Source: Conexibacter woesei Iso977N
GTDB lineage: Bacteria; Actinomycetota; Thermoleophilia; Solirubrobacterales; Solirubrobacteraceae
DNA length: 64,000 bases
Assembly (NCBI RefSeq): GCF_000424625.1
Contig: NZ_AUKG01000004.1
Span: 248,001 to 312,000 of the forward strand
Direction of reading: 5' to 3'
The notes under the pieces were generated by a model that saw only the letters and a list, made by a program, of their open reading frames with translations, had not been told where the DNA came from and did not search any database. Made by a program: the position numbers and the translations under genes. Shown one piece after another: positions 36,954 through 47,010 of the stretch. Within the stretch, counting starts at the first letter, position 1. Each line of letters begins with the position of its first letter.

Positions 36954-37597
36954 CCGCGCTGTCCCTCTCCCCCGCTGCCGTCCTCTCCGACCTCGACGGC
37001 GTCCTCGTCGACTCCGGCGACTCGATCGAGGTCACGTGGTCGACGTGGGCGGAGTCGGTCGGGATCGAGCCGTCCGTGTTGCTGGGCTCGGTCCACGGGC
37101 GCCCGGCGCGCGACGTGATCGCCGAGTTCGCGCCGCACCTCGACGTCGCCGCCGAGGACGCGCGGATCGAGCGCATGGACATCGAGGGGCCGCCGGCGCG
37201 GCTGCTGCCGGGCGCACGCGAGTTGTTGATGGGGTCGAGCGTGGTCGGGTCGTCGTTCGCGGTCGTGACGTCGTGCCCGCCGGAGCTGGGACGCGTGCGG
37301 ATCGAGACCGCGGGGCTGCCGATCCCGCGCGTGTTCGTGACGTCCGACCGCGTCCGGGCGGGCAAGCCGGACCCGGAGGGCTACCTGCTGGCGGCGCGCT
37401 CGCTGGGGGTCGACCCCGCGGCGTGCGTCGTCTTCGAGGACGCGCCGGCGGGCGTGGCCGCAGGCGCCGCGGCGGGCGCGACGGTCGTCGGGATCACGAC
37501 GACGCACGCGCGCGACGAGCTGCTCGCCGCGGGCGCCGCGACCTGCGCCGCGACCGTCGCGGACGCGCTCTCCCTGGTCGCCGCTTCCCGGAGCTAG
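36950..37597 (+). CDS. HAD-superfamily phosphatase (sugar-phosphatase-like)
   Basis: A 215-residue HAD hydrolase with motif I SDLDGVLVDS, motif II-like VVTSC, the Lys motif GKPDPEGYLLAA and motif IV VFEDAPAGVAAG. This is the beta-phosphoglucomutase/DOG1-type subfamily with a helical cap. It probably dephosphorylates a sugar phosphate. The ATG overlaps the MFS stop (ATGA) with GGAGG at 36941-36945. Confidence 0.91.
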   Translation: MTALSLSPAAVLSDLDGVLVDSGDSIEVTWSTWAESVGIEPSVLLGSVHGRPARDVIAEFAPHLDVAAEDARIERMDIEGPPARLLPGARELLMGSSVVGSSFAVVTSCPPELGRVRIETAGLPIPRVFVTSDRVRAGKPDPEGYLLAARSLGVDPAACVVFEDAPAGVAAGAAAGATVVGITTTHARDELLAAGAATCAATVADALSLVAASRS

Positions 37598-37625
37598 GCT
37601 CGCCCGGTCAGATTCCGCACGCAGT

Positions 37626-37644
37626 GCCGTGACATCTTCACGGC
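37626..37644. terminator. Small hairpin between the HAD gene and the next secreted protein
   Basis: GCCGTGA-CATCT-TCACGGC is a 7-bp stem with a 5-nt loop, 28 nt after the HAD stop and immediately before the GGGAGGAG ribosome site of the next gene. Termination or a regulatory role is possible; there is no U-tract. Confidence 0.4.
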
Positions 37645-37663
37645 GGGAGGAGTCATACCGGGC

Positions 37664-38473
37664 ATGACCACGCTTCTGAACCCCAAGCGCGCCGCCCTCG
37701 CCGCGGTGGCCGCGCTGGCCGTGGCGGCCCCGGCCGCGGGCGCCGCCTCCGCCCCCTCGGGCATCGACCCCGCGATCTACGACGCCGGGGTCGCGCCGGG
37801 CACGGTGATGCACGGCGTGTCGTCGTTCGTCATCAGCGGCTCGGCGGGCAACGACATGAACCAGCGGATCGAGTGGTGGATCGCGTCGGACCGCTGGCGT
37901 TCGCAGACGACCGACACCAGGACCGGCAAGGCGGTCGGCGCCAGCGTCCACGACGCGAGCGGCACGACGTGGATCCGCTACGACCCGCCGGCCGGGATCC
38001 CGAAGGTCGAGCACTTCAGGGGCAACGACTCGATCCCCGGGCCGGGCTACCCCGCGGCCTACAACAAGGAGCTGCTGGCGGGCACCGAGCAGGGCTCCGA
38101 GCAGCACCGCTACTTCACGTCGCTGCAGGCGATCGGGCCGGTGACGATCGCGGGCGTGACCGGGACCAAGTACGAGCAGCTCGTGGATGGGAAGACCGGC
38201 ATCCAGGACTCGCAGGACGGGTCGCACGTGTGGATCACGCTCGAGGACGGCACGGCGCTGCCGCTGGCGCGTGAGTCGACGGCGCCGAACGGCAAGTGGG
38301 GCCAGTTCGACCAGAAGGAGGAGCTGATCTCCCGCGAGGTCGTGTCGGCCGACAGCACCGCCGGCAGCGCGGTCACGGCGCGCCTGTCGAAGGTCAGCTT
38401 CTCGAAGACGGTGAAGACCTGGAAGGCCAAGGTGGCCAAGGCGAAGCGGGCGTCGAAGAAGCACCACCGCTAG
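37664..38473 (+). CDS. Secreted protein of unknown function
   Basis: A 269-residue exported protein: signal peptide (core AALAAVAALAVAAPAAGAAS), a beta-rich mature domain (FVISGSAGNDMNQRIEWWIA, HVWITLEDGTALPLARESTA) recalling LolA/LppX-like lipoprotein-carrier folds, and a highly basic C-terminus (KAKVAKAKRASKKHHR). A GGGAGGAG site precedes the ATG. The next gene starts right after the TAG with no gap, so it is in one operon with an SH3-like protein and a fused ECF sigma factor. No family name is certain. Confidence 0.68.
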   Translation: MTTLLNPKRAALAAVAALAVAAPAAGAASAPSGIDPAIYDAGVAPGTVMHGVSSFVISGSAGNDMNQRIEWWIASDRWRSQTTDTRTGKAVGASVHDASGTTWIRYDPPAGIPKVEHFRGNDSIPGPGYPAAYNKELLAGTEQGSEQHRYFTSLQAIGPVTIAGVTGTKYEQLVDGKTGIQDSQDGSHVWITLEDGTALPLARESTAPNGKWGQFDQKEELISREVVSADSTAGSAVTARLSKVSFSKTVKTWKAKVAKAKRASKKHHR

Positions 38474-38773
38474 GTGCTGGGCCTGCGTTCACGCCGTGGC
38501 GCTCTCGCCGCGGTCGCGGTCTCGGCGGCGCTCTGCGCGTCGCCGGCCGTGGCCGCGGCTTCGCCGCGTTCGGCGGTCGTCTGCGTGGCGGCCGTCGGGA
38601 TGTACGAGACGCCGGGCGGCGCGCGAGTCGGGGTGCTCCACAGGGGCGACCGCGTGCGCGTCGTGACGGTCGGCGCCGACGACCCGTGGTGGCGCGTGGC
38701 GGCGGCGTTCGGGACGCGCGGCTGGGTGCGCGAGTCGGCGCTGTGCGACGGCGGCGGACGGCACGGGCGATGA
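38474..38773 (+). CDS. Small secreted SH3-like protein
   Basis: A 99-residue protein with a signal peptide (ALAAVAVSAALCASPAVAAA) and a short bacterial SH3 (SH3b) fold: VGMYETPGGARVGVLHRGDR, VVTVGADDPWWRVAAAFGTR, GWVRESALC. Such domains often bind peptidoglycan or protein Pro-rich peptides. The GTG follows the previous TAG directly, and its own TGA overlaps the ATG of the sigma factor gene. The next protein has a related SH3-like end, so both may sense the same wall signal. Confidence 0.72.
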   Translation: MLGLRSRRGALAAVAVSAALCASPAVAAASPRSAVVCVAAVGMYETPGGARVGVLHRGDRVRVVTVGADDPWWRVAAAFGTRGWVRESALCDGGGRHGR

Positions 38774-40191
38774 GCGTCGCGGCGAGGGGTTCGGCAGCGG
38801 TGCAGCGGCCGTCGGGGCGGATGAGCGACACCGAGCTGCTCGGCGCGCTGCGGCGTGGCGACGATGCGGCGTTCGAGGCGCTGTGCTCGCGGTATGAGAG
38901 CGCTCTGCGTCGCTACGCGCGCCACGTGTTGCGGGCGCGCCCGGCGGTGGTCGTCGACGACGTCGTCCAGGAGGCGCTGCTGCGTGCGCACCGGGCGCTG
39001 CGGCGCGACGACCGCCACATCGAGGTCCGGCCCTACCTGTTCCGGCTGGTCCGCAACTGCTGCCTGGACGAGCTGGCGCGGGTCCGGACCGACTCCGTCC
39101 CGCTGCACCTGCTGGTCGCGGGCGAGGAGCCGGCGGCGTCCGGGCCGTCGGTGGAGTCGGCGGCCGAGCAGCGCGACCGCGTCGCCCTGGCGTTGGGCGA
39201 CCTCGCGGCGCTGCCGGAGGTCCAGCGGCACGCTCTGGTGCGGCGCGAGCTGGACGGGCTCACGCACGAGCAGGTCGCCGCCGAGCTGGGGATCACGCCG
39301 GGCGCGTCGCGCTCGCTGGTCTACCGCGCGCGTGAAGCGCTCACCCGCGCGGACGCCGCCCGCGAGGCGCGCTGCGAGGACGTGCGCTTCGCGCTGCTCA
39401 AGGCCCACGACGACAAGCGCCGCGCGCCCGTGAGCGCGCTGCGCCACGTCGCCGGCTGCGGCGCCTGCCGCGCGTTCCGGACCGAGTTGAAGCACAACCG
39501 CTCGACGCTGCGGGTGCTGGTTCCGGCGCCACTGCTGCTGCTCGGCGCCGCGGGCCTGGCGCCGGCGCTGAAGGCCGGCGTCGTCAAGCCGGTCGCGACC
39601 GGCGCGGTCGCGCTGCTCGCCGCGGGCGGCGCGGCCTACGAGCTGCACCAGCACGTCTTCGCGCCGGGCGACCCGACGCCGATCCCGCTCTCCGGCGTGG
39701 CGCTCCCCCACGGCCGCCTGGCCGCGGGCGCGCCGCTGCCCGCGCGCACCGCGCTGATCACCGCCCGGACGGCCGCGTCGGCGACGTCGGCGCAGCTGAC
39801 CTGCCCCACCGGGATGCGCGTCGCCGGCCTCGTCCCCACGCCCGGCTCCCAGCGCTCGCTCGGCTTCGACCCCGCGACCGTCATCGGCGCCAGCACCTCG
39901 GCCCACGTCCTCTTCGGCCCCGGCGACGACGCCGTCGACCTCGCGATCCTCTGCCGCGTCCCGTCCTCGACCGGCTCCGTCCGCGCCAGCTCCGCCACCG
40001 CGGCCTCCCACCACCTCATCGTCCACGCCTGCCGCCGCCGCACAGCGCTCGCAACGTCACCCGGCGGCCCCACCTCCGGCACCATCACCGCCTCCGAACC
40101 CCTCTCGATCCTCTCCGGCCGCTCCGGCTGGCTCCGCGTCAAGACCGACGCCGGCCGCCGCGGCTGGATCCCCGCCCGCGTCGCCTGCTGA
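38770..40191 (+). CDS. ECF sigma factor fused to zinc anti-sigma motif, membrane segment and SH3-like domain
   Basis: A 473-residue multidomain protein. Sigma-2 is at residues about 28-108 (FEALCSRYESALRRYARHVL, VVDDVVQEALLRAHRAL, RPYLFRLVRNCCLDELAR) and sigma-4 at about 135-195 (ALPEVQRHALVRRELDGL, THEQVAAELGITPGASRSLV). It is followed by H226-x3-C230-x2-C233, the zinc anti-sigma (ZAS) signature, then a membrane segment (about 248-290), a Pro/Ala-rich linker and a C-terminal SH3-like part (SGRSGWLRVKTDAGRRGWIP). Thus a sigma factor and its would-be anti-sigma factor occur in one chain. The ATG at 38770 overlaps the preceding stop; ATG 38821 is a possible shorter start. Predicted signalling is inference. 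Confidence 0.85.
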   Translation: MSVAARGSAAVQRPSGRMSDTELLGALRRGDDAAFEALCSRYESALRRYARHVLRARPAVVVDDVVQEALLRAHRALRRDDRHIEVRPYLFRLVRNCCLDELARVRTDSVPLHLLVAGEEPAASGPSVESAAEQRDRVALALGDLAALPEVQRHALVRRELDGLTHEQVAAELGITPGASRSLVYRAREALTRADAAREARCEDVRFALLKAHDDKRRAPVSALRHVAGCGACRAFRTELKHNRSTLRVLVPAPLLLLGAAGLAPALKAGVVKPVATGAVALLAAGGAAYELHQHVFAPGDPTPIPLSGVALPHGRLAAGAPLPARTALITARTAASATSAQLTCPTGMRVAGLVPTPGSQRSLGFDPATVIGASTSAHVLFGPGDDAVDLAILCRVPSSTGSVRASSATAASHHLIVHACRRRTALATSPGGPTSGTITASEPLSILSGRSGWLRVKTDAGRRGWIPARVAC

Positions 40192-41129
<938 letters not shown>

Positions 41130-41133
<4 letters not shown>

Positions 41134-42047
41134 GCCTCCGGGAAGATACGCGCCCAGTCGTCGCGCATCGAGACGACCGTCCACCCCGCGCGCGCCGCGG
41201 TCTCGGCGATCGCCTCGGCGCTCGGGTCGGTCATCGCCTTGCCCTCGTAGGCGAACTCCCGATCGGCGTCGTCGTGGTCGACGACGATCGCCAGCGACGG
41301 GTGCTCGGTCCCGGTCGTCGCGTACTCGAGCATCTCGCGGTCCCCCGCGCTGTTGCCCGCCGCGAAGATCGGGCGCCGCCCGACGTGCGCCTGGATGTTG
41401 ATGACCTTGGGGGCGCCCTCGTTGGGCGAGCCGAGCAGCCTGGCCGTGCGCACCAGGTCGATCCTGCCGTCGCGGCGCTCCAGCTCGACCTCGACGGCCG
41501 AGCCGACGACGTCGTCGGGCGACACCCCGTAGAGCCGCTCGCTCGCCGCCCGGACGAACTCGACGCCGCCACCGGTGACGATGAACACGCGGAACCCGTG
41601 GTCGCGCAGCAAGGCCATCAACTCGAGCATCGGCGCGTAGACCAGGTCCGCGCACGGCCGCCTGAAGTGCGGGTGCGGCGCGTGCTCCAGCCACGCCGCC
41701 GCCGTTACGGCGAACGCCTCGGCGGTCACGCCGGCGTCCGTGGCCAGCAGCACCTCGGCCAGCGGCCCGAGCCCCTGCGCGGCCGCGGCCTCCAGGTCGC
41801 CCTCGAGCAGCGCCTGCGTGACCGGCCTGGCCGCCAGCTCCGGGTCGTCGGCCGCCTGCTCCTGCAGGCGCTGCAGCAGGTACAGCGCCTGGACGTAGGC
41901 CGGCTTCTCGCACCACAGCGTGCCGTCGTTGTCGAAGACGGCGATCCGGTCGCCCGCGGGGACCGACGCCTCGGCGTGGGCCGCGAAGTCCAGCAGGGCC
42001 TGCTTGGCCGGCCCGTCGTTCCAGGAGGCCAGTGGCTCGGCGCTCAT
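41130..42047 (-). CDS. HAD-family phosphatase (SerB-like)
   Basis: A 305-residue HAD hydrolase with nucleophile motif D39-x-D41 in AVFDNDGTLWCEKPAYVQ, the motif II region RVFIVTGGGVEFVR and motif IV AAGNSAGDREMLEY. It resembles phosphoserine phosphatase-like proteins common in Actinobacteria and Proteobacteria that travel with sulfatases. Its likely role is to remove a phosphate from a small molecule; the link to sulfate ester degradation is by gene order only. It lies between the sulfatase (5-nt gap) and the FGE gene (4-nt overlap). Confidence 0.87.
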
Positions 42048-42052
42048 CGGCC

Positions 42053-43600
42053 TCAGCGCCCCGACGTCAGGACGCTGTTGAGCTTGTCCACGACCTGGTC
42101 GATCGTGAAGCTCGCCGCCTTCTGGCGCGGCGGGAACTCCTCGAACGTCGCCAGGAACTGCGTGACCAGGCCGGTCGCCGCGAGCACGATGTAGTCGTTC
42201 TCGAACATCCAGTCCCAGTAGGTGTTGGACGTGATGTCGGCGCGCTCGAACGGGTCCATGCGCAAGTTGAACAACTTGGGCACGCGCAGGGCGACGAACG
42301 GCTCGGCCCAGATCTGCAGCGTGCCCTGCTCGCGCTGCTCCATGAAGACGACCTTCCAGTTGTCGAAGCGCAGCGCCAGCACGTCGCCGTCGTCGGAGAA
42401 GTAGACGAGGCCCTGGCGCGGCGACCTCTCCGCCGCGCCCGTCAGGTACGGGAGCAGGTTGTAGCCGTCGATGTGGACCCTGTAGGTCGTGTCGCCGATC
42501 GTGTGCCCGGCCTTGAGCTTGTCGATGATCTCGTCGTCGCCCGCGGCGGCCAGGAACGTCGGCAGCCAGTCGTGGTGCTGGACGATCTCGTTGGAGACGC
42601 TGCCCGCGGCGATCCTGCCGGGCCAGCGGATCATCTCCGGGATCCGGAAGGCGCCCTCCCAGTTGGTGTTCTTCTCGCTGCGGAACGGCGTCATGCCGCC
42701 GTCGGGCCACGTGTTCATGTGCGGCCCGTTGTCGGTGGAGTAGATGACGATCGTGTCCTCGGCGAGGCCGAGCTCGTCGAGCTGGTCCAGCAGCGCGCCG
42801 ACGACCCTGTCGTGGTCGATCATCGTGTCGTGGTAGGGCGACTGCCAGCGGCCGGCCTGGCCGATGCTCTCGGGCTTCGGATGCGTCCGGAAGTGCATGT
42901 GCGTGGTGTTGAACCACACGAAGAACGGCGTGTCCTCCGCGGCCTGGCGCCCGATGAAGTCCCTCGCGACGTCGAGCACCTCGTCGTCGATGGTCTCCAT
43001 CCGCTTCCTCGTCAGCGGCCCGGTGTCCTCGATCCGCTGCTTGCCGACACGCCCGTAGCGGCCCTCCTCGGTGTCGTCGTCGGCGTCGGTCGCCCACGCG
43101 TGCAGGACGCCGCGGGGCCGGAAGCGCTCGTTGAAGCCCGGGAAGTCCGCGGCCGGCGGCCAGTTCGGCCACTCCGGCTCCTCCTCGGCGTTCAAGTGGT
43201 ACAGGTTGCCGTAGAACTCGTCGAAGCCGTGCACCGTCGGCAGGTACTTGTTGAGGTCGCCGAGGTGGTTCTTGCCGAACTGCCCGGTCGCGTAGCCGCG
43301 CTCCCTGAGCAGCGTGGCGATCGACACGTCCTCGGGCTGCAGCCCGACGTCGGCGCCCGGCATCCCGACCTTGCTCAGCCCGGTCCGGAACACCGACTGG
43401 CCGGTGATGAACGACGACCGCCCCGCCGTGCAGCTCTGCTCGCCGTAGGAGTCGGTGAACCGCATCCCCTCGTCGGCGATCCGGTCGATGTTCGGCGTCC
43501 GGTAGCCCATCAGGCCGTCGGAGTAGCAACTCAGGTTGGTGATGCCGATGTCATCGCCCCAGATCACCAGGATGTTGGGCTTCTTGCGCTCGTCGGGCAC
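42053..43600 (-). CDS. Arylsulfatase (type I, formylglycine sulfatase)
   Basis: A 515-residue alkaline-phosphatase-superfamily sulfatase without an evident signal peptide. The signature SCTAGRSS (C57-T-A-G-R61) is the FGE target, and the metal-binding DD-type start NILVIWGDDIGITNLS, the GKNHLGD histidine motif and STDNGPHMNTWPDGG are all present. It hydrolyses a sulfate ester; substrate unknown. It heads the sulfatase-HAD-FGE operon, so it should be matured by the enzyme encoded two genes downstream. The GTG start at 43600 has a GGGAGG site at 6 nt. Confidence 0.95.
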   Translation of the reverse strand: MPDERKKPNILVIWGDDIGITNLSCYSDGLMGYRTPNIDRIADEGMRFTDSYGEQSCTAGRSSFITGQSVFRTGLSKVGMPGADVGLQPEDVSIATLLRERGYATGQFGKNHLGDLNKYLPTVHGFDEFYGNLYHLNAEEEPEWPNWPPAADFPGFNERFRPRGVLHAWATDADDDTEEGRYGRVGKQRIEDTGPLTRKRMETIDDEVLDVARDFIGRQAAEDTPFFVWFNTTHMHFRTHPKPESIGQAGRWQSPYHDTMIDHDRVVGALLDQLDELGLAEDTIVIYSTDNGPHMNTWPDGGMTPFRSEKNTNWEGAFRIPEMIRWPGRIAAGSVSNEIVQHHDWLPTFLAAAGDDEIIDKLKAGHTIGDTTYRVHIDGYNLLPYLTGAAERSPRQGLVYFSDDGDVLALRFDNWKVVFMEQREQGTLQIWAEPFVALRVPKLFNLRMDPFERADITSNTYWDWMFENDYIVLAATGLVTQFLATFEEFPPRQKAASFTIDQVVDKLNSVLTSGR

Positions 43601-43647
43601 GTCGTTCCTCCCGTTCCTCTCGCTCGGATACGACGTGCACCATCACC

Positions 43648-43662
43648 GACGCTGGGAGCGTC
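43648..43662. promoter_or_regulatory. Palindrome upstream of the sulfatase operon
   Basis: GACGCT-GGG-AGCGTC lies 48 nt upstream of the sulfatase start in the 207-bp gap that separates it from the ATPase island. It may be an operator. The rest of the gap shows no gene. Confidence 0.4.
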
Positions 43663-43807
43663 AGACATCACCCGCGGCGGATGAACGGCTCACAGAACGT
43701 GACTCCATGCCATCTCGGGCGTCGTCGGCCCTGCATCGGTTGCCGCCACGAAGCAGCTCCCGACGAGGAAAGGTGCGAAGGAAGGCGCGTCGATTCGCGG
43801 TTCCTTG

Positions 43808-46129
43808 TCAGGTCCGCTCGGGAAGTGCGGTGGCCTCGGTGTGAGTGGCTCGACACATGCGCTCGAAGTGGTCGGCGTCGACCGCGCGCAGGAATTCCAT
43901 GCACCGCCGGATCTGCCCCTGGACCGCGCGAGCGTCGAGTACGTCCACGCTCTCGTTGCCCTCGCCATGCGAAAAGCGATTGCAGAAGTCGTAGACGTCG
44001 CGAAATGGCTCGCCCTGCCTGCTCTCAACGAGCGCCTCGAGCTGCCGCAGGAAATCCGGACGGTCGGGCACCTTGTAACTGGCGAACACTTCGAGCACGC
44101 GACGGGCTGCATTCGGGAGAAGGAACAGGCGCTCGTGATCCTCGGATGCAGCGACGCCGGCCATGACCATCTCGAAGAGATAGGCGTACTCCGAGGTGTT
44201 GTTCAGCAAAAGCTCCGGCAGCGCGCCCATCCATGACTTGCGCTCGCCGTCGAGCGAAGTCGCGTACATCTCCATGAACGAAACCCTTGGAAAATGTCGT
44301 TCGGCGACATCGCCCTCACGGATCCTCCGCCTCGACTTCGTCCACTGGCTCCTCTGAGACTTGATGAACAGCCGCAACAGGCTGAAATCGTGGGTCAAGA
44401 CGATGTACTGCCCAAACTTGTTGAGCGTGTCCACCAACCACTGATGAGTTGCGAACAGTGATTCTCGGTCAAGAGAGCTGGACGGATCGTCGATCACCAC
44501 GATGCGCCGCGACGGTTCGTCGCCCGCTGACTGCTCATCCTCCAACTTCCGCAAGAAGTACAACAACGAAAGCGTCGTCCGCTCGCCCTCGCTGAGATCC
44601 TTCCCCGGCGCGTCACCGCGGCGACAGGCGTACGACTTTCCGTCAGCGGTGACCGCGATGCTGAGATGTTCCTTGCCGTAGACGCGGGCAAGATCGCGCG
44701 TCAAAATATCGGCCATCGCTTTGGTGGTGAATTGCGACTGGCGAACCTTATCCAGCCGTAGCTCCGCCAAACGTGCCGACTCAACACTAGTCCTGCTCTT
44801 GACGGCGCACCTCCTGGCCTGGTCCTCGAGTTCTCGAAATCCCGAGCTGTGCGAGCCGATCAGATGCGCCAGCACGGTCCGCTCGCGGTCCTCGGTGACC
44901 TCCCTATGCCTAGCTGCGCGGTCGTTGTGGCCAAGGACCGCCTCGGCTAGCACCGTGGTCGACGGACCACCGCGCAGCAACGAGAAGTCCGGCGCCGTCG
45001 GCCTGACGTTAGGGTCGTCAGCCTTGGCCTTAAGCACGCGCTCGACAGCATCCATGACGGCGAGGCGGTCTTGTACTGCCGAAGCCGCACGGTCCAGCGC
45101 GCTGCCGTAGACCATTTGGGACTCGCTGTCCATGAGTTCCACGGAGGGCAACCCAGAGTGCCACGACACGAGCCTCTCTCTTGCGCTGAGGACAGAGTCC
45201 CGCAAGTTGTTGGCGTTGCCTCGGATCCTGAGCCAGCTTTCATCGAAGTGCTGCGCGAGTTGCAGGCGCCGCTGGTTGGAAATCTCATTTGCACAAAAGA
45301 GACAGTGCTCCAAACCATCATGCATCTCAATTCCCTGCTCAACCCACCTCTGTGCCGTCGGGTCATCCTCCAACGCCTGAATGGCAGTCCGGACGGGCGT
45401 CTCGGCAAGAAGCTCAGCCAGACCGGCGAGCGCGCCGAAGATGCCGGACGGTGGTTCGGGGATCTCCGGCACGGCAGACGGGGCGCTCTCTCCTAGGCGC
45501 TTCAACGCCTCGGCATGGGCGTTGTCGTCAGGGATGTCGCCCCTGTACCTCCGTAGACGATCTTGGACTATGGGAAGCGAGTAGCGATTCTTCGTGTAGT
45601 GCTTGAAATCGAACTCCTCGAGCTCAGACACGATCCGATCTTGGACGCGCCTGGCCATCTCGTTGACTTTCCTGTCGGCTGCCCTCTGCTCCCTAGCGGC
45701 CTCTCGCGCTCCCTCGTGAAGCTCCTCGATCTCCTGAACGAGCCTTGTCTCTTCCTCTTTGGCATCGATGGCCTCGCGCCCGAGGGACACGATCGCTGAC
45801 GCGCCGGCCCCCTCCAGGAACTCGGCGAGGTTCTCCTCGACCCACCTGCGAGTGAAGACCGCCATGGCGGGTGAGGGACCGGCTCCGCCAGTTGCGACGG
45901 CAGTCCGCCGCCTATCCCCGTCCTCCCACACGATGCCTGTGGCGCAGTCGCCTTCGGCGAGGCTGAGAAGCAACTCGGACAACGTGGACTTCCCACTGCC
46001 GTTATGGCCATACATGATCGTGCGTCGTCCGGCTGCGATATCGGCTGGCCAAAAGTCCCTATGCAGGGATCGCCACGAGTCCTTGAGATCGAGCCGGCGA
46101 AGCAAGCCTGAGTTCGGAGCTGTCGTCAC
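43808..46129 (-). CDS. RloC-like ATPase, putative stand-alone anticodon-nuclease defence protein
   Basis: A 773-residue SMC/Rad50-like ABC ATPase (AAA_13 type). Residues 41-49 are Walker A GHNGSGKST; two helical/coiled-coil arms (about 120-175 and 300-475) flank C276-x2-C279 (HCLFCANE), which fits a zinc hook; signature 512-516 (LSEGE); Walker B at 543-549 (VVIDDPS) and an H-loop His580. The C-terminal 190 residues contain R676-x3-E680 and H721, the R-x3-E...H pattern of PrrC/RloC anticodon nucleases, with the FCNRFSHGEGNES region typical of this group. Length is close to RloC. The gene is clearly lower in GC than its neighbours and stands alone, suggesting horizontal transfer. Alternative: another AAA_13 defence or repair ATPase. 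The GTG at 46129 is likely leaderless. Confidence 0.8.
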   Translation of the reverse strand: MTTAPNSGLLRRLDLKDSWRSLHRDFWPADIAAGRRTIMYGHNGSGKSTLSELLLSLAEGDCATGIVWEDGDRRRTAVATGGAGPSPAMAVFTRRWVEENLAEFLEGAGASAIVSLGREAIDAKEEETRLVQEIEELHEGAREAAREQRAADRKVNEMARRVQDRIVSELEEFDFKHYTKNRYSLPIVQDRLRRYRGDIPDDNAHAEALKRLGESAPSAVPEIPEPPSGIFGALAGLAELLAETPVRTAIQALEDDPTAQRWVEQGIEMHDGLEHCLFCANEISNQRRLQLAQHFDESWLRIRGNANNLRDSVLSARERLVSWHSGLPSVELMDSESQMVYGSALDRAASAVQDRLAVMDAVERVLKAKADDPNVRPTAPDFSLLRGGPSTTVLAEAVLGHNDRAARHREVTEDRERTVLAHLIGSHSSGFRELEDQARRCAVKSRTSVESARLAELRLDKVRQSQFTTKAMADILTRDLARVYGKEHLSIAVTADGKSYACRRGDAPGKDLSEGERTTLSLLYFLRKLEDEQSAGDEPSRRIVVIDDPSSSLDRESLFATHQWLVDTLNKFGQYIVLTHDFSLLRLFIKSQRSQWTKSRRRIREGDVAERHFPRVSFMEMYATSLDGERKSWMGALPELLLNNTSEYAYLFEMVMAGVAASEDHERLFLLPNAARRVLEVFASYKVPDRPDFLRQLEALVESRQGEPFRDVYDFCNRFSHGEGNESVDVLDARAVQGQIRRCMEFLRAVDADHFERMCRATHTEATALPERT

Positions 46130-46174
46130 CCCAATATCCTAAGTGATTGCTGATCGTTGGCACAATTAGCAATC
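46130..46174 (-). promoter_or_regulatory. Promoter and operator of the RloC-like gene
   Basis: On the minus strand TTGTGC (complement of 46159-46164) is followed after 17 bp by TAGGAT (complement of 46136-46141), which ends 6 nt before the GTG. The inverted repeat TGATTGCT (46143-46150) and AGCAATCA (46167-46174) flanks the -35 with a 16-bp centre. The remaining gap to 46353 is featureless high-GC sequence. Confidence 0.55.
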
Positions 46175-46353
46175 ATCAGGCATTCCGAGCTGCGTAGCGA
46201 ACCCCGAATGTCGACGGAGACTCTGGCAAACGAGCGAGACGCCAGGATCGACAACGCGCCGGTACCGCTGACGTCGGCAGCGCTGACGGTGCGGCCGTGG
46301 ACGACATAGGTGGCGCTGAGGAGGCGCCTCTGGTCCGCGTGTACCGAGGTCGG

Positions 46354-47010
46354 CTAGAGGCCGAGCTCGGACCGGTAGGTCGTGCGGTACTGCTTGCGGG
46401 CGGCCATGACCTTGGTCACGTAGGAGCGGGTCTCGCCGAAGGGGATGGCGGAGATGTTGAGCGACTTGTCCTGGGCCTTGGCGGCCGCGACCCACTTGTC
46501 GACGTTGCCCTCGCCGGCGTTGTAGGCGGCGAGCACCAGCGGCACGTCGTCGCCGTAGCGCTGCATCAGGTACTTCAGGTAGTACGCGCCGTAGGCGATG
46601 TTGACCTGGGGCGTCCCGAGGTCGCTGACCTGGAACGCCGTCCCGCCGGACTTGTGCGCGATGTACTGCGCGGTCGCGGGCGTCAGCTGCATCAGGCCCT
46701 TGGCCCCGGCGCTGCTCGTCCGGCCGTCGATGAACCGCGACTCCGCGTAGATGACGCCGGCGATCAGCGCCGGATCGAGGCCCTTGTCGCGCGCCTGCTG
46801 GCGGATGATGTCCTCGTGGCGCAGCGGCAGCGAGATCTCGGTGACCGCATGGTGGAACGCGGGCCTCAGCGCGAGCACCGCGCACACCGCCAGGACGATC
46901 GTCGTGGCGATCGCCATCAGGCGCCGGCGCCGGATCTGCGCGACCGACGCCCCGCGGCGGGCGGCTGCCGGCTGACGCCGGCGGGAGGCTGTCGCGGTCC
47001 GGGTGCTCAT
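46354..47010 (-). CDS. Lytic murein transglycosylase (SLT domain)
   Basis: A 218-residue protein with a short cytoplasmic, Arg/Ala-rich N-terminus, one membrane anchor (about 32-50, MAIATTIVLAVCAVLALRPA) and an SLT domain (about 70-215) containing IAGVIYAESRF with the catalytic Glu, SAGAKGLMQLTPATA and AYNAGEGNV. It resembles the MltE/Slt70-like group and cuts glycan strands to make room for wall synthesis. The ATG overlaps the coaE stop (ATGA), an operon arrangement also seen in other actinobacteria. Confidence 0.9.
   Translation of the reverse strand: MSTRTATASRRRQPAAARRGASVAQIRRRRLMAIATTIVLAVCAVLALRPAFHHAVTEISLPLRHEDIIRQQARDKGLDPALIAGVIYAESRFIDGRTSSAGAKGLMQLTPATAQYIAHKSGGTAFQVSDLGTPQVNIAYGAYYLKYLMQRYGDDVPLVLAAYNAGEGNVDKWVAAAKAQDKSLNISAIPFGETRSYVTKVMAARKQYRTTYRSELGL

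Follow-up and report, generated by a model that had tools for sequence, protein, structure and literature searches.

A probable RloC-type anticodon nuclease gene, apparently acquired by lateral transfer, in Conexibacter woesei Iso977N

The gene and its variable setting

The window, a 64,000-nucleotide stretch of Conexibacter woesei Iso977N DNA (contig NZ_AUKG01000004.1, positions 248,001 to 312,000), contains at 43808..46129 a gene of the ABC ATPase-HEPN kind that we regard as RloC-type and whose translation runs to 773 residues. The open frame reported there by an earlier, sequence-only reading lies on the minus strand, with plus-strand frame 1 carrying stops over the same interval. Pfam family PF13166 (AAA_13) covers residues 26-737 at 1.4e-83 and the best PADLOC model, PDC-S06, covers residues 27-761 at E 8.4e-103; the 25 NCBIfam matches listed are partial and mostly ABC-type, falling under their cut-offs. 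The start codon as called is GTG, and a TTG at residue 9 lines up with the first methionine of the plasmid relatives, so the protein has either 773 or 765 residues.

Pfam assigns nearby frames to a formylglycine-generating enzyme (FGE; 40192-41070), a HAD phosphatase (41130-42035), a sulfatase (42053-43600) and an SLT transglycosylase (46354-47010), in agreement with the sulfatase and cell-wall neighbours described earlier. Together with the sulfatase, HAD, FGE and two further frames, the gene occupies a variable 8.77-kb segment (37585..46350) that is missing at the site in the congeners G001 and G004. Similarity to G001 DNA ends at window position 37584 and restarts at 46351, with 1.1 kb lying between, and on a 3.4-kb contig of G004 the same two flanking genes lie fewer than 100 bases apart. 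Since G001 holds a differing 1.1-kb stretch here, the SLT-HAD site seems to be a hotspot for change, and since the other genes of the segment are all higher in GC, the rloC-type gene may be a separate arrival. The G001 stretch (L025 12190-13345) contains a small frame and, by eye, an apparent long inverted repeat, and the sulfatase found only partial matches, at 33-40%, in two of six congeners. Repeat searches gave no convincing flanking att-like or terminal repeat, in keeping with the earlier remark that no att repeat is visible; ARAGORN found no tRNA in the window, Rfam had no match in 43400-46600, a single-protein query of viral contigs, which reaches close relatives only, returned no relative, and phage records yielded three weak matches, none covering 80%.

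The sequence-only reading had contrasted 57-60% GC with about 72% in the surroundings and taken this as a sign of transfer. The lower figures hold for the trough, where the lowest 500-base windows have 58.0-58.8%, but not for the whole gene, at 62.1% against 71.2% for the window. Rare codons, by a list of our own choosing, make up 9.7% of the gene; in five other frames of the window, 2731 codons in all, they amount to 1.2%, and in the sulfatase gene to 1.6%. Low GC is nevertheless weak evidence of transfer: at 18 of 19 loci of the clade described below the gene's GC lies under that of its flanks, and in the remaining one equals it, so that close relatives usually share the low GC, which does not date the event. 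The claim of transfer stands on better evidence, for absence from relatives and the existence of plasmid homologues both indicate that the gene is lateral. Among 61 genomes (its own, six of the same genus and others of the family and order; completeness is 90% or more and contamination 5% or less in 46 of them) it occurs in its own only, the one other match being a Walker A fragment at 7e-4; it is thus missing from the 60 relatives searched and not conserved at the locus. Across 396 Actinomycetota genomes three match at 1e-10, its own included. A relative on a Dietzia plasmid, at 62% identity, adjoins an IS21 element, and another on a Rhodococcus plasmid, at 60% identity, lies two genes from an integrase.

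Head, hook and C-terminal domain

Genome relatives were collected by Walker A and signature patterns only, so neither the C-terminal triad nor the hook was selected for, and the best 80 of 466 were kept from the genome scan. An 84-row alignment comprises the window protein, 78 of these best 80 and five plasmid relatives, with L046 (frameshifts) and L102 (stops) dropped; an 81-row alignment was built without L031, L036 and L045, which entered the 84-row one with corrected starts. Every motif position in the sequence-only reading proved exact: Walker A at 41-49, CLFC at 276-279, LSEGE at 512-516, Walker B at 543-549, and R676, E680 and H721.

The whole-protein AlphaFold2 model (65-row alignment) has a mean pLDDT of 87.6, and its top VIA-align matches are Rad50 and SMC heads; Rad50 5da9 aligns with Z 16.9 and rmsd 7.7 over 295 positions, spanning model residues 8-644, as would befit the Rad50-like ABC head of an RloC. 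The N-terminal half of this head (residues 9-110; 45800..46105, minus strand) includes Walker A (45983..46009, minus strand), whose G41, N43, G46 and K47 are present in 80 of 81 sequences, the remaining row having a gap. The C-terminal half (residues 471-605; 44315..44719, minus strand), delimited by motifs, alignment and VIA-align, carries the LSEGE signature, Walker B and H580. Between them lie the helical arms and putative zinc-hook insert (residues 118-470; 44720..45778, minus strand), in which AlphaFold2 predicts long helices at 118-170, 296-325, 335-371 and 408-464, flanking the CxxC motif on both sides. This motif (C276/C279; 45293..45304, minus strand), proposed earlier as a zinc-hook candidate, retains that standing, since cysteine occupies each of its positions in all 84 aligned sequences. 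PDB sequence searches with the protein and with profile A1 returned generic ABC ATPases, Rad50 and AriA, and neither RloC nor PrrC was named among the matches listed for these queries or for the C-domain profile A3.

RloC was defined by the pattern R-x3-E-x36-52-H, often with Ser before the His, and by a CxxC coiled-coil insert in an ABC head, in proteins of 658-897 residues (Davidov and Kaufmann 2008, PMC2610378). The window protein falls within this size range at 773 residues, its CxxC lies between long predicted helices that appear to split the ABC ATPase, and its C-terminal residues are arranged as R676-x3-E680-x40-S720-H721, with R676-x3-E680 at 44090..44104 and the stretch RDVYDFCNRFSH (residues 710-721) at 43967..44002, both on the minus strand; in the latter, S720-H721 is accompanied by D714 in place of arginine and by an additional R718, as judged from alignment counts. 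In a single sequence the triad pattern is weak, since shuffling the last 190 residues 2000 times produces R-x3-E-x36-52-H in 51% of cases, and in 5.2% when Ser is demanded ahead of His. We take it to be real because it is near-invariant across the 84 aligned sequences, with R676 in 84, E680 in 81 (D in three), S720 in 83 and H721 in 84, which bears out the R-E-H pattern as first described; the Glu-His spacing is 38-53 in the 78 rows of the 81-row alignment that have the full triad. Two further residues, D751 (81/84) and H754 (84/84), at 751-754 (window 43868-43879), are conserved like the catalytic triad, and their equivalents lie outside the definition of RloC as given in PMC2610378.

The C-terminal domain (residues 646-761; 43847..44194, minus strand) was also modelled alone by AlphaFold2 (62-row alignment), with a mean pLDDT of 86.5. 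Foldseek gave weak matches, none of them under E 0.9. The top seven rows from a second VIA-align pass are all HEPN or HEPN-type, at Z 7.4-8.6: 1wty (8.6; rmsd 3.4, 106 aligned), HepT 6m6u (8.5; rmsd 3.4, 107 aligned), SO_3166-SO_3165 5yep (8.3), 7bxo (8.3), 7ae6 (8.1), 8yuf (8.1) and 6m6w (7.4), where 1wty and 7bxo are presumed by us to be HEPN proteins. Below them come C-domains of aminoglycoside nucleotidyltransferases, HI0074, Csm6 and TM0613, and the first row that we judged unrelated to HEPN has Z 5.9. For a helical bundle a best Z of 8.6 is moderate, but the top rows are notably consistent. HEPN domains have an acidic residue in helix 2 and a histidine at the end of helix 3 (PMC3710099), and the model agrees, with R676 and E680 on core helix 2 and H721 immediately following core helix 3, by our own core-helix numbering, in which two short helices of the domain model (60-63 and 88-98) are not counted. 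The fold prediction proposed with the sequence-only reading thus yields a domain that best resembles HEPN RNases and keeps a conserved R-E-H site, rather than another AAA_13 family that lacks the triad. Weak PDB matches of profile A3 to MarR/MepR (best E 0.009) and to other proteins we took as chance.

The resemblance of head and arms to Rad50 could also suggest a Rad50/SbcC-like ATPase of DNA metabolism whose C-terminal helical domain is structural rather than nucleolytic, and the loss of an arginine typical of HEPN RNases, described below, would fit such a role. We consider this highly improbable, as the triad R, E and H is invariant in all 20 members of the clade to which the protein belongs, the patchy and partly plasmid-borne distribution is unlike that of a housekeeping repair gene, and Rad50 and SbcC are described in the 2008 paper as having no such C-region (PMC2610378). 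The analysis provides the family, domain order, conservation of the named residues, predicted folds and lateral distribution, and every sequence feature of RloC that we tried is present, which supports the RloC-like reading. It is quite likely, in our judgement, that the gene encodes a laterally acquired anticodon nuclease of RloC type, with nuclease activity and a tRNA target ascribed by analogy. Counting against that assignment are the large distance of the clade, the unmatched R-x4-6-H motif, the moderate HEPN Z and the non-R-M neighbours in the window.

An actinobacterial clade and its charge reversal

Eighteen genome loci among the best 80 of 466 relatives, all from Actinomycetota, are 48-68% identical to the window protein, and the window, 17 genome loci and two plasmids form a 20-sequence clade. 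The other 62 of the best 80 are at 22-29%, and the clade stands far from its nearest other relatives, at 19-29% identity. In a 30-row tree the clade has support of 100/100, and its branch measures 4.4 changes per column, a length that carries a long-branch warning; the window protein is nearest to rows from Microbacterium, Promicromonospora and a Thermoleophilia MAG, with its placement inside the clade weakly fixed. Because the two characterised RloCs are reported to be only 33% identical to each other (PMC3874168), so wide a separation is nothing exceptional in this family.

The neighbours of the relatives were surveyed at 20 clade loci other than the window (18 genome loci, L029-L046, and two plasmids), distal genes being scanned at only some of them. 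R-M genes lie near at least six of the 20, a raw count, as are all our linkage counts. They stand within two genes at four loci, as a type ISP enzyme (L005), a C5 methyltransferase (L029), HsdR and HsdS (L036) and an Eco57I/MmeI-like gene (L038); more distant are hsdM, hsdS and an hsdR-like gene at L030 and, at L044, a type IIG enzyme at a distance of about 4.4 kb. No conserved partner gene emerged, as no family among 186 neighbour frames was seen at four or more loci; the recurring pairs are hsd-like genes, recombinases, IS21-type transposases and acyl-CoA dehydrogenases, along with three unassigned pairs (two shared by L033 and L037, one by L039 and L041). A TIR-domain gene (L032 6672-7622) adjoins the Promicromonospora relative, another (L007 8321-9016) comes after a distant relative on a Shewanella plasmid, and near the Williamsia relative in the clade is a 1208-residue frame (L045 12227-15853) that matches PADLOC mad3 at 4.9e-65 and LmuB at 1e-24.

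Such linkage raises the question of whether the protein is instead an anticodon nuclease of PrrC type, reliant on a type I R-M partner. PrrC has the identical order of ABC ATPase and nuclease and the same triad (PMC2610378), several clade relatives adjoin R-M genes, and the genome has one HsdR_N match, which lies on contig C2, a different contig from that of the window (C4). This identity is nonetheless scarcely credible: the PADLOC match to PrrC is confined to residues 538-584, the Walker B stretch, at E 0.0015, and the protein has 773 residues and a hook as compared with 341-416 residues for PrrC (PMC2610378). Nor is any R-M gene, hsd or other, among the immediate neighbours in the window, which are SLT, sulfatase, HAD and FGE. 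The PADLOC PrrC model had no match in the 396 Actinomycetota genomes at E 1e-15.

What sets the clade apart within the RloC type is the helix ahead of the putative catalytic histidine. HEPN RNases carry R-x4-6-H (PMC3710099; PMC4748810), a motif reported to be missing or partial in some HEPN families, in one of which other basic residues may have replaced the arginine (PMC3710099). The window protein has no arginine at 714, 715 or 716, and reads D714-x6-H721 instead. Within the clade residue 714 is D in 19 of 20 sequences and T in one (e.g. DFCNRFSH), as against R in 55 and K in six of the 64 aligned rows outside it, drawn from the best 80 of 466 relatives and the plasmid relatives, with Q, G and E once each (e.g. 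RFLNxxSH). At residue 718, 19 of the 20 have R and the other has K, as compared with K in six and R in none of the 64; residue 711 is D in all 20 versus R/K in 48/64, and residue 710 is R in all 20 versus R/K in 5/64. The register appears firm, F715, N717, S720 and H721 aligning without gaps. When all 773 columns were scanned for charge reversals, taken as one charge in 90% or more of the clade and the opposite charge in 70% or more outside it, three emerged, at 164, 711 and 714, so that two of the three in the whole protein fall in this helix. The swap does not look like decay, since clade members are identical at 44 of the 128 columns in the HEPN domain, and at 12 of the 170 in the second arm. 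Nor is it an actinobacterial trait as such, because seven other actinobacterial relatives retain R at 714 (L048, L049, L067, L073, L079, L080 and L084, from Microbacteriaceae and Arthrobacter, at about 27-29% identity).

We infer from these alignments that the role of the arginine may have been handed over to R718, and expect the clade enzyme to be active, with altered substrate contacts. More tentatively, and with less than even confidence, we propose a separate RloC subtype for the Actinomycetota clade. Its HEPN arginine, whether catalytic or in contact with the substrate, would have shifted one turn along the helix, from R714 to R718, and R710, D714 and R718 might form a salt-bridge ladder; the resulting nuclease would differ in tRNA target or cut pattern, and would have travelled with several kinds of R-M gene (type I, IIG, ISP and C5 methyltransferase). 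The loss of the HEPN arginine is the point that is new beyond the sequence-only reading. Among titles and abstract openings on RloC, HEPN, Rx4-6H and Actinobacteria we found none describing this clade or the R-to-D change, and none reporting an experiment on a clade member. The clade, with its natural charge swap, offers a ready comparison for the arginine's role in catalysis, in tRNA choice and in making one cut or two. A HEPN RNase of the same architecture might instead cut an RNA other than the host anticodon loop, such as mRNA, rRNA or phage tRNA; the HEPN toxins RNase LS and LsoA are reported to cut mRNA (PMC3710099), and the charge-swapped helix would be compatible with another substrate. 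We hold this to be unlikely, because the R-E-H triad and the intervals between its residues match the tRNA-cutting RloC.

Proposed action and known systems

By analogy with the RloC proteins of Geobacillus and Acinetobacter, two ATPase heads would pair, and the CxxC hook would join two arms via zinc and so restrain the C-terminal HEPN RNase. DNA ends, from breaks or phage-degraded DNA, might engage the heads, whereupon ATP hydrolysis would free the RNase and R676, E680 and H721 would cut tRNA in the anticodon loop. Translation would then stop, which could halt phage growth or pause a damaged cell. Actinobacterial phages often carry tRNAs. For the window protein we infer the RNase activity, tRNA target, DNA-break trigger and any phage protection or benefit from the characterised members of the family. 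There, heads are reported to sense linear DNA with ATP, a zinc hook to restrain the RNase and DNA ends to release it; the tRNAs targeted are those for Glu and Gln in Acinetobacter RloC, and those for Lys and Glu were reported cut by Geobacillus RloC in E. coli (PMC2610378; PMC3874168). The earlier description of RloC as a stand-alone phage-exclusion factor was overstated, as its antiviral role is a proposal in the 2013 RloC paper (Klaiman et al. 2013, PMC3874168) and is given as "Not tested" in PMC12322248. A single-gene system, RloC is reported to link the sensing of DNA breaks with the cutting of tRNA, its benefit to the cell being unproven in the literature consulted. The clade adds actinobacterial members of RloC type, several of which adjoin R-M genes.

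Among known systems, PrrC is similar in joining an ABC ATPase to a C-terminal nuclease with an R-E-H triad (PMC2610378), but it has no zinc hook, is half the size and is linked to type I R-M, unlike the window protein. PDC-S06, the PADLOC model that fits best, is a candidate label to which no mechanism is attached, and is counted among the PADLOC candidates having proteins in common with DefenseFinder systems (PMC11811056). The HEPN toxins (HepT) and the HEPN domain of Csm6 have a fold like that predicted for the C-terminal domain, but their sensor domains or partners differ, and Csm6 retains the R-x4-6-H (PMC4748810) that is absent from the window clade. The closest likeness is to RloC of Geobacillus kaustophilus and Acinetobacter baylyi, which resemble the window protein in size and in having a Rad50-like head split by a CxxC coiled coil. 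Compared by published residue numbers rather than by sequence alignment, Geobacillus RloC (C288, C291, R692, E696 and H737; PMC2610378) has 404 residues from first Cys to Arg as against 400 in the window protein, and a Glu-His spacer of 40 that is the same in both. The RloC group of 2008 was described as seldom linked to R-M and as showing rare codons, with GUG starts in 13/70 (PMC2610378), and its rare codons and GTG start are common to the window gene. Set against its 64 aligned relatives outside the clade, the window protein would differ from other RloCs in the clade-specific D at 714 in place of R/K and in the added basic residue at 718.
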